From assembly GCF_000027005.1 (NCBI RefSeq), contig NC_012965.1:235001-299000 (forward strand): 64,000 bases of DNA, in the 5' to 3' direction. Of the stretch, positions 12,484 through 46,607 are shown piece after piece. The notes under the pieces were generated by a model. It ran no database searches. It was given only the letters and a program-made list of their open reading frames with translations, and was not told the DNA's origin. Position 1 is the stretch's first letter. Every line of letters starts with the position of its first letter. Source of the stretch: Komagataella phaffii GS115 (lineage: Eukaryota > Ascomycota > Pichiomycetes > Pichiales > Pichiaceae). Made by a program: the position numbers and the translations under genes.

Positions 12484-13071
12484 ATGATCCATTCTGTGCT
12501 GATATGTAAGTAATATTGTTTTTCCTCCGTCTGGTCCAACAATTACTAACTTTTAGTCAACAATGATGGGCTTCCTCGGTTGATGAAGTTTTATACCTCC
12601 GTGGATATTGAAACACAGAGACTGCTATTGCAACAAGTCCACCAACTGGTAATTACAAGGACCGAAGACCAATGTTCATTTTTAACCCCACCGCCGTTAT
12701 TGGAGGATTATGACGATATCAAAGTTATCTATAGACACTACGCCACGCTATACTTCGTGTTTATTGTTGACAACCAAGAATCCGAATTGGGTATATTGGA
12801 CCTAATACAGGTCTTCGTGGAAGTACTGAACAACTGCTTTACCAACGTTTGTGAGCTAGATTTGGTTTTTGGATGGCAGGTTCTGCAGGCTGCTTTGGAA
12901 GAAATTGTCCAGGGTGGGATGGTGATAGACACAAACATCAAGAAGATAGTGGCAGCAATCGATAAGGCAAACCTGCAAATCGAAAGCAGCACCGCAGGAA
13001 GTAATTTAGCATCAAAGGGTCTCTTTGCATTTAAGAAACAAGCTCCCGGGTTATTCAACGCATGGGGTTGA
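12484..13071 (+). CDS. APS3: AP-3 adaptor complex sigma subunit Aps3 (spliced)
   Basis: Two exons, 12484-12505 and 12557-13071, give 178 residues. Exon 1 encodes MIHSVLI; joining to exon 2 gives MIHSVLIFNNDGLPRLMKFY, the canonical sigma3 start, which confirms the splice. The rest is a single longin-like sigma domain with the YRHYATLYFVFIVD strand-helix core and the GILDLIQVFVEVLN..FxNVCELDLVF segment shared by sigma chains. AP-3 sorts cargo such as alkaline phosphatase and the t-SNARE Vam3 from the Golgi directly to the vacuole. The length is near S. cerevisiae Aps3 (194). An internal ATG in exon 2 would lose the first beta strand, so it is not the start. Confidence 0.95.
12506..12556 (+). 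other. Spliceosomal intron of APS3
   Basis: 51 nt, 5' GTAAGT, branch site TACTAAC at 12544-12550, acceptor TTTTAG six bases after it. Splicing restores the conserved N-terminal strand of the sigma subunit. Confidence 0.95.
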
Positions 13072-13829: not shown

Positions 13830-15308
13830 ATGTCCCCTGAAAGAGACTACAATATTATCGTGATAGGCGCTGGAGTTGTTGGCCCTTGCATAGCAACGGC
13901 TCTCGCCAGGCAAGGCCGGAAAGTGCTTATCGTGGAGAGAGACTGGTCGGAGCCAAACAGGATTGTCGGCGAATTGATGCAGCCTTCTGGGTTGAAAGCC
14001 TTGCGAGAGCTTGGAATGATCGAAGCTATCAATGACATTGACGCGTTTTATACTGCAGGATACCTGGTTAAGAACTATAATGAGGATGTACTAATTCCAT
14101 ATTCATACAAACAGGACTTGAAGTTGGTAGAAGAGCCAGTTCCAGGCTGTGTCAAAGATGGTAACGATAAATTGAAGGACGATAAGGATACTGAAGCTGG
14201 TATTTCTGTCAAAGATTGGGAATCAGATGAAAGAATTAGAGGGGTGGCTTTCCATCATGGTAGATTTGTCATGAATCTGAGAAAAATTGCAACTCAAGAA
14301 CCAAATATAACCAAGTTGCAAGGAAATGTGACATCATTACTGAAAAACGATTTGGATGCTTGTATTGGTGTTGAAGTTGAGGACGACTCTAAGAATCGTA
14401 AGAACTATACGGCTGAATTGGTAATTTGCACAGACGGAATCTACTCTAAGTTTAGAAAAGAGTTATTTTTGTCCAAGAAGCCGCAAGTTGGATCATATTT
14501 TGTTGGTTTGGAACTACAGAACGCAATAGTTCCTAAGCTTCATTATGGCCATGTCATCATGGGAGACCATGCGCCTATTCTAATGTACCAGATTTCTCAG
14601 ACGAAGACTCGAGTTTTATGCGCTTACCGTTCTGAGAAACTACCTCCTAAGAATGATGTTCTTAAATATCTAAATGAAGTTGTTTTGCCTAGCTTTCCTG
14701 CTGAGACGCAACCTTCATTGATAGAAGCTTTATCGAAGGATGACTGTTACCGTGCCATGCCAAATCAATATTTAACTGCAAAGACAAACACAATTCCGGG
14801 CCTGGCCTTCATTGGCGACGCTCTCAATATGAGACATCCATTGACAGGTGGAGGCATGACCGTAGGTATAAATGATGCTGCCTTATTGGCAAGGGTCTTA
14901 TATGACGTTAGGGATCTGTTAGATGACGCTACTGTTTCTGAAAAATTGGCCGAATTCCATTACGAACGTAAGAAGCTCAGTTCGGTGATTAACGTTCTAT
15001 CGATCGCCCTTTTTTCTCTTTTCGATGGCGACTCTAAAGCTTTACTGATCCTTAGACGGGGTTGTTTTGCTTATTTCAAACGTGGCGGAAAATGTGTCAC
15101 TGACCCTGTTGATCTACTGAGTGGTCTTTTACCCAGTCCTATGATTCTATTTCACCACTTTTTCAGCGTCGCTTTTTACGGCCTTTGGCTGAACTATATT
15201 GACAGAGGCCTTATTGGTTTTCCATTAGCCATTTGGGAGAATTTGTGTGCTCTTTACACGGCCATCATTGTTTTTACTCCCTATTTATGGGACGAACTGG
15301 TTGTTTAG
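13830..15308 (+). CDS. ERG1: Squalene epoxidase (squalene monooxygenase) Erg1
   Basis: 492 residues (S. cerevisiae 496). The FAD-binding motif VIGAGVVGPCIATALARQG starts at residue 11, with ERD at the strand-2 end. GELMQPSGLKALRELGM, the DG motif (TDGIYSKFRKE) and GDALNMRHPLTGGGMTVG near 330 complete the flavin monooxygenase fold. Two C-terminal hydrophobic segments (about 430-490) anchor it in the ER/lipid-droplet membrane. It converts squalene to 2,3-oxidosqualene with O2, FAD and NADPH, the first oxygen-dependent step of ergosterol synthesis and the target of terbinafine. A sterol-response-like element lies upstream. The name is certain from motif content. Confidence 0.97.
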   Translation: MSPERDYNIIVIGAGVVGPCIATALARQGRKVLIVERDWSEPNRIVGELMQPSGLKALRELGMIEAINDIDAFYTAGYLVKNYNEDVLIPYSYKQDLKLVEEPVPGCVKDGNDKLKDDKDTEAGISVKDWESDERIRGVAFHHGRFVMNLRKIATQEPNITKLQGNVTSLLKNDLDACIGVEVEDDSKNRKNYTAELVICTDGIYSKFRKELFLSKKPQVGSYFVGLELQNAIVPKLHYGHVIMGDHAPILMYQISQTKTRVLCAYRSEKLPPKNDVLKYLNEVVLPSFPAETQPSLIEALSKDDCYRAMPNQYLTAKTNTIPGLAFIGDALNMRHPLTGGGMTVGINDAALLARVLYDVRDLLDDATVSEKLAEFHYERKKLSSVINVLSIALFSLFDGDSKALLILRRGCFAYFKRGGKCVTDPVDLLSGLLPSPMILFHHFFSVAFYGLWLNYIDRGLIGFPLAIWENLCALYTAIIVFTPYLWDELVV

Positions 15309-31153: not shown

Positions 31154-31723
31154 ATGGGAAAAGCAAAAAAGACAAGAAAGTTTGCTCAAGTGAAAAGAAC
31201 TCTGAAGTCTACCGACCAAAGGTTGAAAAATAGCGTTCAGAAACCAAGGGACCCTAAAGATGATCCTGAACTGGTAAGATCAGTTCCACAAGTCTCATCG
31301 GCTCTTTTTTTCCAGTATAACCAAGCTATCAAACCTCCGTACCAGGTTCTCATAGATACCAATTTCATCAACTTTAGCATTCAAAAGAAAATCGATATAG
31401 TCCGCGGGATGATGGACACACTATATGCTAAATGCGTTCCTTTGATTACAGATTGTGTTGTTGCCGAATTGGAGAAATTGGGTCCAAAGTACAGAATTGC
31501 CTTGAAACTAGCCAAGGATCCCAGGATCAAAAGACTATCCTGCTCCCATAGGGGAACATATGCCGATGATTGCTTGGTTCATCGAGTCATACAACATAAG
31601 TGTTTCATCGTCGCAACAAACGATGCGGATCTGAAGAGAAGAGTAAGAAAAGTCCCTGGTATTCCGATTATGAGCGTAGGAGGCCATAAATATGAGATAG
31701 AAAGATTGCCAGAAGTGTTTTAA
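31154..31723 (+). CDS. FCF1: Fcf1, PIN-domain protein of the SSU processome
   Basis: 189 residues, the same length as S. cerevisiae Fcf1 (Utp24). A basic N-terminus ([18 protein letters not shown]) precedes a PIN domain with its acidic residues: [30 protein letters not shown] and [17 protein letters not shown]. It cuts or helps cut the 18S pre-rRNA 5' end (A1/A2 sites) in the nucleolus. The end is the conserved [11 protein letters not shown] (CTAT)4 tract lies in the leader at 31081-31096. The start matches the family's MGKAKKTRK. Confidence 0.97.
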
Positions 31724-36592: not shown

Positions 36593-38898
36593 TTAAGGAA
36601 TCTGTCTAATTTGATCTATATTTATGGCTTGATTACTTTTGAGACTTGCAGCAGAACTCTTCATGGAATTAATCAAATACGATTCTCTAGTAGAGTCCAA
36701 CCTCGTAAGCCATGAGCTATCGGCCGAAAGCTTAGAAAATAAGTACCCAAGTAAGGAATCACCAGCGCCAGTGACATTAATAATTTCATCGGAAGGGACA
36801 ACATCGAGCACTGGAAAATGTTGTACTAGAACACCAATTCTACCAACTCCGACTGGTTTACCCTTGGTCAGGAAAGAGAAAGTCGACACACTGCCAATAA
36901 TTTTTGAACCTTTGATTAGATTGTCGTATTTGTCACAATCTGTAATGATTTGGAAAACAATTATTCCATTCTTACCATCTTTAACAATAATATTGTTGAA
37001 AAAAGGAAGTAACCTGAATGTTTTTGTCAAAAATCCCTGTTCAAGTAAAGGCCTCAAATAATCATTTCTTTCAAATTCTCTGTCCAAAGCGTGTCTGACA
37101 TTGTAGTCCAGTCCTAGCGAATCCACAACAGGAAACCATTCATTTTGATAAGCATCAAAGAGACAATTATCATGGAATTCGTTAAATATTGCGTTCAGTT
37201 CGGTGACAGTTGGTGTTATCAGTTTCACTGAATTGTGAGGGAATATTCGCAGATTATTTAACTTTCCCAGTTTGGCTGCCTTGATAGCAGACGCTGGTTC
37301 AATGACCACATCAAAATCTTCAAGCTTCACAATGGAGTCAATCAACGAATTACTCAAATTGCAGTCTAAAAGAACCCATCTAGGTTGATATTTTCCCAAG
37401 CATTCCATGGCATGCTCTATGGAAATATTTTCAACCACTTTCATGTCGGCACTGGCGACAACCAAAGCACCAGAATGATCATGGATGGACACGTACGTTC
37501 CTGTGGGGAAATTCTCAGAGATTGAAACAGCGTCAGTGGCCATTCCACAAGATTTCATAGTCTCCATCAAGCCCCTGCCTAACAGGTCATTTCCCACAGC
37601 AGAGCAGAGTCGGGTTTCCACGAACGAGCCATGATCTCTCGAAGCCAGATGTGTAGCGAGTGCAACATTGAATCCTACGCCTCCTATAGACTGTGCGTGT
37701 GTTCCTGGGTTTGAATCATTCGCAATATAGCCGGATTGAAGAGAGCACATAGTATCGTGGGCAATAGACCCCACTATCACAGCCTCAACCTTTTGAGGGA
37801 TTCTCGGAGTGTTAAGGGAGGGATTAAATTTAGCTTTGTTTTTATTAGGGATTGATGACTTGAAAATTAGTAAATGCTATTATGAAGAAGAAAAAAATGG
37901 CTTTAACTTACTTCATTCTTTGTCAAACTAGCCAATTCTGTCGCTATTTGTGATGCAATCTTGGCGTTATTTAGTACAAATTGGGCATTACATTCAACGC
38001 TCTTACCGTTGGTCTTATGATATATTTTGTCCAATAAAAATGGAGTGACATTCTTTCCAGATATTTCTAGCACTTTCGCTTCTTGCAAAGCATCCTCAAT
38101 GATAGAGTTGATGAAGTTAAGGTCCAATGCAGATTCTAATGGAGGTGGAATACAGAACAATTGGCCATTATCCAAACCCATGTTTAGACTTGCAAATATC
38201 ATAGATGCGGCTTCTTTGGGAGACGAAAATTCAAACGGAGACGCAACATTGGAAGATCTTGTGTAAAATCCAGGGACATGTTTTCCGAAAGGGGCATTGC
38301 CGTCATTAAACGTACAAACAGGAACTCCCTTGGTTTCTAAATATTCCATTGTTCTTGGAACATCCAAGATTGACTTGGGTCCACTGCAGACAACTGCAAC
38401 ATCTGTTCGAGACAATTCCTCCAAATCGGCACTGACATCCATGGTCACTTCACCATTTCTATGAACACCTCCCAATCCTCCTGTCGCAAAAACTTTTATT
38501 CCCGCCATTTTGGAAAGCATCATAGTGCTGGCTATAGTGGTTCCCCCCGTTAAACCGCGTGCCACTACATACGGAATATCTCTTCTCGACGTTTTATGTT
38601 TTGGAAGTCCAGATGATGCTGGATCTGCCAACAATCTCAGGTCCTCAGTGCTCAAGCCAACTTTCGGACTGCCATTAATGAACGCAATTGTAGCCGGGAT
38701 GGCACTCTGGTCTCTTATAACATGCTCTACCTCATTGGCAAGCTCCAAGTTTTGTGGATAGGGCAAGCCATGGGTAATGATGGTGGACTCCAATGACACC
38801 ACAGGGATGTTATTTTTCACAGCATGCTGGACTTCCTCACTGACAATTGGCGCCGAGTAATGAAGCGGCCGCCTGAAGTTCAAAAAACGGCGCAACAT
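36593..38898 (-). CDS. Bifunctional pseudouridine-5'-phosphate glycosidase / pseudouridine kinase (spliced)
   Basis: Exon 1 38898-37912 and exon 2 37858-36593 give 750 residues. Residues 1-329 are a PsuG glycosidase: VVSLESTIITHGLPYPQN, GLTGGTTIASTM, FATGGLGGVHR, DVSADLEEL, CSGPKSILD and TPFLLDKI. Residues 330-750 are a PfkB-type kinase: GSIAHD, GGVGFNVA, AVGNDLLGRGL and the catalytic NVTGAGDSLLGYL. The kinase half has no ATG of its own near its start, and the spliced frame runs directly into it. Together they phosphorylate pseudouridine and split the C-C glycosidic bond, giving uracil and ribose 5-phosphate for RNA salvage. This fusion is known in fungi and other eukaryotes, but S. cerevisiae lacks the pathway. 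The N-terminus (MLRRFLNFRRPLHYSAP) resembles a mitochondrial presequence. Confidence 0.9.
37859..37911 (-). other. Spliceosomal intron joining the PsuG and PsuK halves
   Basis: 53 nt on the minus strand: donor GTAAGT at 37911-37906, branch-like TACTAAT, acceptor TTTCAAG ending at 37859. The phase is 0. An in-frame TAA lies just after the donor, so unspliced RNA would give only the glycosidase. Confidence 0.88.
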
Positions 38899-42351: not shown

Positions 42352-42694
42352 ATGAGTGGGTACGTGACACAAAAAGGTTTTCTTGAACTCCCATCTTGAA
42401 TACTAACTGTTTCATAGATGGACTGTGATAATAACACTGCTTGTGGTAATTGCCATTGGAACAGGGTTCTGGTTTGTTGCCCCCAAGCAAGACCAAACGT
42501 AAGTACAGTTTACACCAGAGAAGGGAACAGAAGAAATAGGAACATTGCCTTACTAACATCTAAGCGTTTGGAGAAGTACAGTGCTGTTAACTTTAGCTAT
42601 GTGTTGGTTAATGTGGGCGTTCACTTATCTCGCACAATTGCATCCATTGGTAGCCCCAAGGAGATCCGATCTTAGACCAGAATACGCCGAGTAA
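42352..42694 (+). CDS. VMA9: V-ATPase Vo subunit e, Vma9 (three exons)
   Basis: Exons 42352-42359, 42418-42498 and 42565-42694 give 72 residues (S. cerevisiae 73). The spliced product begins MSGWTVIITLLVVIAIGTGF, continues WFVAPKQDQTVWRSTVLL and ends LHPLVAPRRSDLRPEYAE. It has two membrane helices separated by the APK...WRST loop and the strongly conserved QLHPLVAPRRSDLRPE tail. Subunit e is needed for assembly of the proton-pumping Vo sector. Both introns use TACTAAC branch sites. The exons are 8, 81 and 130 nt, so no single frame shows the gene. It sits 165 bp from the STP22 start, head to head. Confidence 0.95.
42360..42417 (+). other. VMA9 intron 1
   Basis: 58 nt, donor GTACGT, branch TACTAAC at 42400-42406, acceptor TTTCATAG. 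It splits the third codon after only 8 coding bases, as in some other yeasts' VMA9. Confidence 0.92.
42499..42564 (+). other. VMA9 intron 2
   Basis: 66 nt, donor GTAAGT, branch TACTAAC at 42551-42557, acceptor TAAG. Splicing joins ...KQDQ-T to VWRST, restoring the conserved loop. Confidence 0.92.
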
Positions 42695-45749: not shown

Positions 45750-46607
45750 ATGAGCACCAAAATACCCCAACAAGAGATAATTCCTCTGCGTACGGACCTT
45801 GCTGCGCTCGGTAATCGTATAAATGCTGAAACCAGGAATGCCCACAATAAGATTGATAAGATGATGACGCTAAAGTTTGCACTGGCTTTGAGAGATCCTA
45901 AGATCTACCGTCAGGGTATACAGATGTACTATCATATTTTTTCAGCTATTGAAGAGTCTCTTGACCGTGAGTTGTCCAAGGAGACGCCCTGGACCTCAAT
46001 TTTGAAACAGGTTTACAAGCCTACCATTCGTCGATCTGAACGTCTTTACAAAGATTTGTTGTTTTACTACGACAACGATCCAAAAAAGTTTGCTGAGCCT
46101 ATCATGCCGGAGCAAATTCGTTTCATTCGTCACATCAAGGAGTCGACTGCAGAGAAGCCATACCTTTTGCTGGCTTATATGCATGTCATGTACCTGGCTC
46201 TTTTCGCTGGTGGCCGTATCTTTAGATCCAAGTTGGCTAAAGCTGTTGGACTGTTCCCTCAGGTCGTTGGAAAAACCACCGAAGAGATCTCTCTCGAGGC
46301 CACTAACTTTTTCCGTTTCGAATGTGAGGATGAAGATGCCTTCCGTATCGTTTACAAACGTGACTACGAACTTGCCACGCGTAATAACTTGACTGAGACA
46401 GAAAAGCAGGAGATAATCAAGGAAAGTCAACTCGTTTTCGAAGAAAATGCAACATGTGTCAAAGAGATTGAATCTCACAACTTGAGAAGACTGCAAGAAA
46501 AGGTCCTCTACAAAGTAGCCACCAAGGGTTACTACGTGGTTCTCGCAGTACTTATTATGTTGGCTGTGTTCCTTTTAAAGACAATCGCATCAAGACTACT
46601 TTTGTAA
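45750..46607 (+). CDS. HMX1: Heme oxygenase, ER-anchored
   Basis: 285 residues (S. cerevisiae Hmx1 317). The heme-oxygenase helical fold is visible: INAETRNAHNKIDKMM with the proximal heme His at about residue 32, YRQGIQMYYHIFSAIEESL, and the distal-helix region AYMHVMYLALFAGGRIFRSKL with its Gly-rich kink. A C-terminal membrane anchor (about 263-283, VVLAVLIMLAVFLLKTIA) places it on the ER with the active site in the cytosol. It breaks heme to biliverdin, CO and Fe2+, recycling iron under iron shortage. An Aft1-like site lies 258 bp upstream. Confidence 0.93.
   Translation: MSTKIPQQEIIPLRTDLAALGNRINAETRNAHNKIDKMMTLKFALALRDPKIYRQGIQMYYHIFSAIEESLDRELSKETPWTSILKQVYKPTIRRSERLYKDLLFYYDNDPKKFAEPIMPEQIRFIRHIKESTAEKPYLLLAYMHVMYLALFAGGRIFRSKLAKAVGLFPQVVGKTTEEISLEATNFFRFECEDEDAFRIVYKRDYELATRNNLTETEKQEIIKESQLVFEENATCVKEIESHNLRRLQEKVLYKVATKGYYVVLAVLIMLAVFLLKTIASRLLL

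Follow-up and report, generated by a model that had tools for sequence, protein, structure and literature searches.

A fusion of pseudouridine-5'-phosphate glycosidase (PsuG) with pseudouridine kinase (PsuK) is described for fungi and animals, and in the eukaryotic PsuKG proteins of Schizosaccharomyces pombe, zebrafish, fly and worm PsuG forms the N-terminal and PsuK the C-terminal part of one chain (PMC9247573). This description precedes a report on Candida albicans PUG1 (orf19.6187), where PsuG followed by PsuK lies in one gene with an intron of 52 bases at the domain border; the authors argue for one protein and describe close relatives with the same arrangement (PMC12411936, 2025). The excerpts of these accounts do not raise intron and targeting for PsuKG, nor take up a presequence or the position of the stop for PUG1. 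In Escherichia coli (PsuG/PsuK) and Arabidopsis (PUMY/PUKI) homologous domains carry out the same two reactions as separate proteins, the plant pair being peroxisomal (PMC7710942, in excerpt). Deletion of S. pombe SPBC1861.05, the sole enzyme predicted to phosphorylate pseudouridine, causes 5-fluorouracil hypersensitivity (PMC3815194, in excerpt). Here we describe a locus of Komagataella phaffii GS115 at which two neighbouring frames very probably constitute one gene, joined by an intron, for an enzyme degrading the pseudouridine of spent RNA, with the domain order of PsuKG and PUG1 and a domain-border intron of 53 bases. It lies on the minus strand of the analysed stretch of 64,000 nt (the window; contig NC_012965.1, 235,001 to 299,000), whose positions serve as coordinates throughout. 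Among the titles listed for fungal pseudouridine enzymes, for pseudouridine in Komagataella (Pichia pastoris), for compartment, for domain-border introns and for nearby gene numbers, none concerned this gene in Komagataella. Enzyme fusion and intron are ordinary in kind; as far as that literature goes, what is new is how widely the intron signature occurs, along with the presequence and a gene model that joins the two frames. Saccharomyces cerevisiae, which according to the initial annotation lacks this pathway, is without a pseudouridine kinase, in agreement with the excerpt of PMC4190384.

The glycosidase frame (38898-37903) encodes 331 residues, the last five being KNEVS. A second frame, open from 37876 to 36593, follows closely on its 3' side. 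The initial annotation had joined the two through a 53-nt phase 0 intron at 37911-37859 to give 750 residues, and recomputation reproduced every one of these coordinates: excision unites both frames in phase 0 as 750 codons plus stop. Read unspliced, the RNA meets a stop 6 nt inside the intron and encodes 331 residues of glycosidase only. The gene is laid out as follows.

37912..38898, minus strand: exon 1 (987 nt, 329 residues), a presequence-like N-terminus and a complete PsuG domain, matching PF04227 and 4gij
38842..38898, minus strand: N-terminal presequence-like stretch MLRRFLNFRRPLHYSAPIV, marked by charge, a pattern match at residue 10 and comparison with other fusions
37859..37911, minus strand: candidate spliceosomal-type intron, phase 0 (53 nt; GTAAGT, TACTAAT, TTTCAAG), with an in-frame TAA right behind GTAAGT
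36593..37858, minus strand: exon 2 (1266 nt with stop, 421 residues), a linker and a predicted PfkB-type PsuK domain, matching PF00294, PRK09850 and 7vkp

The candidate intron has the 5' splice site and the branch site of a spliceosomal intron, together with a fitting 3' splice site and phase. The AAG at 37859 is the earliest AG 3' of the branch site, and later in-frame AGs stand at 37790 and 37784. The single spliced PsuG-PsuK gene of the initial annotation is thus strongly supported by phase and splice signals, by homologous fusions and by read-through of the 5' splice site in other yeasts, and the joined model unites a gene that is split in the database entries of a widely used production yeast.

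The PsuG domain is full-length (PF04227, E 9.9e-122, 406 bits, profile 1-291 of 291). The alignment with the solved PsuG 4gij (E 1.3e-80) spans residues 19-324 of exon 1 and extends to residue 332 of the 335 in the 4gij chain, so that PsuG is whole even in the absence of the kinase half. The Lys of GPKSILD in the window protein aligns with that of GAKSILD in 4gij, which we take to be the catalytic Lys of PsuG. The kinase half matches PF00294 (PfkB, E 2.5e-12), and its best solved relative is the pseudouridine kinase 7vkp (E 1.7e-14), to which its INVTGAGD aligns only in a weak second stretch. Both PfkB hallmarks are found in exon 2, the GAGD motif at residue 364 and the N-terminal G-x-x-x-x-D strand, as VGSIAHD, at residue 29. 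A genome search returned one PsuG and, at E 0.01, no match to this kinase other than the window kinase itself. Once spliced, both domains are predicted to stand in one frame, as the 750-residue frame and the full-length relatives indicate, and the fusion partner supports the view that the second half works like a pseudouridine kinase.

Across the whole genome, GTAAGT..TACTAAY..AG has 116 matches compared with 30 for a reversed control pattern, and the less strict GTAHGT..CTAAY..AG in any phase arises in 40 of 20,000 versions of the 181 nt between the domains that were randomised by a first-order Markov model. Thirty of the genome matches, representing 25 different 5' sites, were fetched, and in 12 of them removal of the intron recovers a frame of 80 codons or more behind an upstream ATG, a count that carries no chance control; four of these 12 (L004, L009, L013, L031) use an AAG 3' site as here. 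In a second set of 20 regions picked for AAG or TACTAAT ends, 10 pass the frame check, likewise without a chance control and with just 1-2 codons ahead of the intron in four (L033, L037, L043, L045); L047 passes with TACTAAT and CAAG together.

A search with the 750-residue protein gave 1040 significant relatives among 7993 candidates scored. Of the best 120 listed, 117 align along most of the protein (at least 87% coverage, 37-46% identity), and the other three (P0096, P0102, P0117) align across 43-44%. The 120 listed fusions carry the kinase start motif in 114 cases and a GAGD-type motif in 116. The glycosidase-alone search, again with the best 120 entries listed, contains 30 fungal-type models by the GPK motif. 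If an intron lay at the same place, an unspliced phase 0 reading would enter GTAAGT, GTACGT or GTATGT and therefore append Val-Ser, Val-Arg or Val-Cys. Such a V[SRC] follows the PsuG domain at an offset of 4-12 residues in 27/30 of these models as against 18/112 fused linkers (eight of the 120 having no recognisable domain end), with a Fisher p of 5e-14 that overstates independence, as the entries share descent. The misses are P0142, P0146 and P0161, and the match of P0163 is probably coincidental; a looser regular-expression count gave 27/29, in which the first match of P0144 and the matches of P0146 (a fused fragment) and P0163 are coincidental, 27/30 being the tighter count. Bacterial-type tails, which are shorter, contain V[SRC] in 0/89. 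Yarrowia lipolytica is present with both models, a 746-residue entry reading ATLE-SGRP and a 338-residue entry reading ATLE-VCGKFEY, and the signature also occurs in Scheffersomyces stipitis (NNVSI) and Ambrosiozyma monospora (GKVSHS). An intron thus seems common to the PsuG/PsuK border of many yeasts, its presence in species other than K. phaffii being read from protein ends.

PsuG domains from 95 rows were placed on a tree: the window, 27 named entries, 26 with the intron signature and 41 of 53 fused 'lgn'-only entries. It intermixes intron-signature and uninterrupted entries, the 'lgn'-only fusions being taken as uninterrupted and presumably representing unspliced calls. It requires at least 14 changes, seven of them forced by starred branches, while shuffles average 21. 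The tree does not separate gain from loss, and an old intron with many losses is its simplest reading. One fused entry, P0012, runs GKVCHRSELTNMPTEQQ across the domain border, where its sister P0148 stops shortly past KVC; this stretch resembles an intron that has no stop and a length of 3n and is read through or exonised. In the viral contigs scanned, no relative of the Pachysolen fusion was found.

In other yeasts the signature can flag models in which this gene was left unspliced, and thereby allows reported kinase losses to be rechecked. Kinase loss has been proposed for the distant Candida species C. lusitaniae and C. guilliermondii (PMC12411936, in excerpt), neither of which was identified among the relatives listed. 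Because glycosidase-only models carry the intron signature, part of these published losses may be artefacts of unspliced gene models.

The first 15 residues of the window protein contain four K/R and no D/E. At least three K/R without D/E occur there in 3/33 open reading frames of the window, this gene included. A pattern from Arg10, which we take to be an R-10-type cleavage motif, would release Ser20, close to the start of the PsuG domain. Among the 114 of 120 listed fusions that could be anchored for comparison, 86 have at least 12 residues ahead of the PsuG domain, all with a net charge of +3 or higher and 78 free of acidic residues. An extension of this length is found in 1/85 anchored comparison proteins, nearly all bacterial-type (drawn from P0165-P0251, which include one fungal-type entry, P0171). 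The putative mitochondrial presequence noted initially is thus upheld as a conserved sequence property. Mitochondrial targeting of the fusion is the best reading and suggests that pseudouridine is broken down in the mitochondria of yeasts, unlike in plants.

With high confidence, then, we read the locus as one 2.3-kb gene that is spliced to a 750-residue bifunctional enzyme with a probable mitochondrial presequence and whose unspliced RNA would mostly be degraded; frames, phase, domains and conservation of the intron signature are direct observations. Removal of the domain-border intron in the cell would give the bifunctional enzyme, which the N-terminus would direct to mitochondria. There its C-terminal PsuK would phosphorylate pseudouridine to pseudouridine 5'-monophosphate (5'-PsiMP), and its N-terminal PsuG would cleave this to uracil and ribose-5-phosphate. 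Most unspliced RNA would be degraded, and any translated remainder would supply complete glycosidase. Since unspliced RNA encodes the whole glycosidase, no kinase would be made without it.

Several observations weigh against this reading. The similarity of the kinase half to characterised enzymes is modest: the pseudouridine kinase model PRK09850, one applied to bacterial and archaeal genomes, tops the four NCBIfam models for it, yet with 69.9 bits falls below the cut-off of 540, and for that reason the claim is kept to a half that works like a pseudouridine kinase. With TACTAAT the branch site has a minority form (13/100 rows listed from the genome-wide pattern match), so splicing may be incomplete. 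Database entries give the Komagataella kinase solely on its own (P0121, P0122), and neither the fusion nor the glycosidase search has a glycosidase or a fusion from Komagataella among the best 120 entries listed. Lastly, 28/114 anchored fusions have an N-terminal extension of under 12 residues.

It is rather unlikely, though to be taken seriously, that the fusion acts elsewhere than in mitochondria, be it in the cytosol or, like the Arabidopsis enzymes, in peroxisomes. The peroxisomal location of plant pseudouridine catabolism (PMC7710942, in excerpt) speaks for this, as does a tripeptide resembling peroxisomal targeting signal type 1 (PTS1) at the end of 3/120 listed fusions, all with short N-termini. 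The window protein itself, however, ends in QIP and has no PTS1, PTS2 is absent from the first 40 residues of the window protein and of all 120 listed fusions, and most fusions have the basic presequence. The three exceptional entries (P0014, P0076, P0099) end in SKL, AKL or SRL and are named Spathaspora, Candida oxycetoniae and Candida theae; a shift from mitochondria to peroxisomes is possible in these.

The initial annotation also saw in retention of the intron a possible switch between one and two activities. The glycosidase-only product stands, but the switch itself is conjectural: the short read-through tails are suggestive, but nonsense-mediated decay may simply remove the unspliced RNA, as in Yarrowia. 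Past the 5' splice site these tails have a median of 3 codons in 26 entries, with at most 2 codons in 13/26 and 17 in P0147; in a chosen set of 38 intron candidates from K. phaffii, also translated in phase 0, the median is 12 and a stop comes within 2 codons in 4/38. For mean tail length p is 0.0015 at an assumed stop frequency of 0.10 per codon and 0.018 at 0.12, where the count of short tails gives 0.041. The short tails may reflect selection that gives the glycosidase a clean end, the AT-richness of the introns or common ancestry.

Regulated retention as a true switch appears improbable to us. In such a scheme slowed splicing would yield glycosidase alone, which could clear 5'-PsiMP released directly by RNA exonucleases and keep toxic PsiMP low, or else cap a trimer/dimer mismatch within the fusion. 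PsiMP is reportedly toxic, to go by the title of work by Chen and Witte in 2020. The intron signature at the domain border across scattered lineages, the excess of short tails over the K. phaffii candidates, the rarer branch-site form and the trimer/dimer question raised in PMC9247573 (in excerpt) all favour regulation. Against it, the short tails are just mildly unusual at a stop frequency of 0.12, they share descent and belong to introns read from protein ends, and many entries are uninterrupted. Moreover, Yarrowia introns are under constraint to hold stops, and unspliced RNAs rise upon inactivation of UPF1 or UPF2 (PMC2911113, in excerpt), which makes decay the expected default; it is also the simpler fate. 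Of the alternative splicing events in P. pastoris, 97% are retained introns, and the excerpt of this work names only three as possibly giving functional proteins (PMC3547764); judging by contig place, we think that the window gene is not one of these. Still more speculative is the idea that budding yeasts have long kept this intron at the domain border under selection. By ending cleanly behind the glycosidase, unspliced RNA would let mitochondrial glycosidase exceed kinase but never let kinase exceed glycosidase, which would protect against toxic pseudouridine monophosphate and relieve the trimer/dimer mismatch of the fusion.

Two tandem genes, a glycosidase ending at 37903 and a kinase with a separate start at the ATG at 37750 or at some near-cognate codon, are very improbable: the kinase is modelled alone in P0121, the window kinase itself, from a Val (GTG) codon, and in K. 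pastoris P0122 (88% identical, 376 residues) from an internal Met that likewise leaves out the VGSIAHD strand, and kinase-only entries of other organisms (P0123, P0124, P0126, P0129) carry a Met right ahead of the first strand, but the earliest in-frame ATG here is exon-2 codon 37, behind VGSIAHD at codon 29, the glycosidase stop lies only 152 nt from it, the matching motif starts the kinase in nearly all listed fusions, and one gene is also favoured by splice signals that keep the phase and by the signature of the 5' splice site that other yeasts show. The initial remark that the kinase frame has no ATG ahead of its first conserved motif is thereby confirmed, and a separate kinase is thinkable in organisms with a Met ahead of the strand, less so in the window.

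Other genes of the window, given for orientation, are the following.

13830-15308: squalene epoxidase gene
31154-31723: gene for an Fcf1-type protein
45750-46607: heme oxygenase gene

Intron-like signals (GTAAGT or GTACGT, TACTAAC, AG) also stand 5' of plus-strand open reading frames at 12506-12556, 42360-42417 and 42499-42564, the last of which would likewise use an AAG 3' site.
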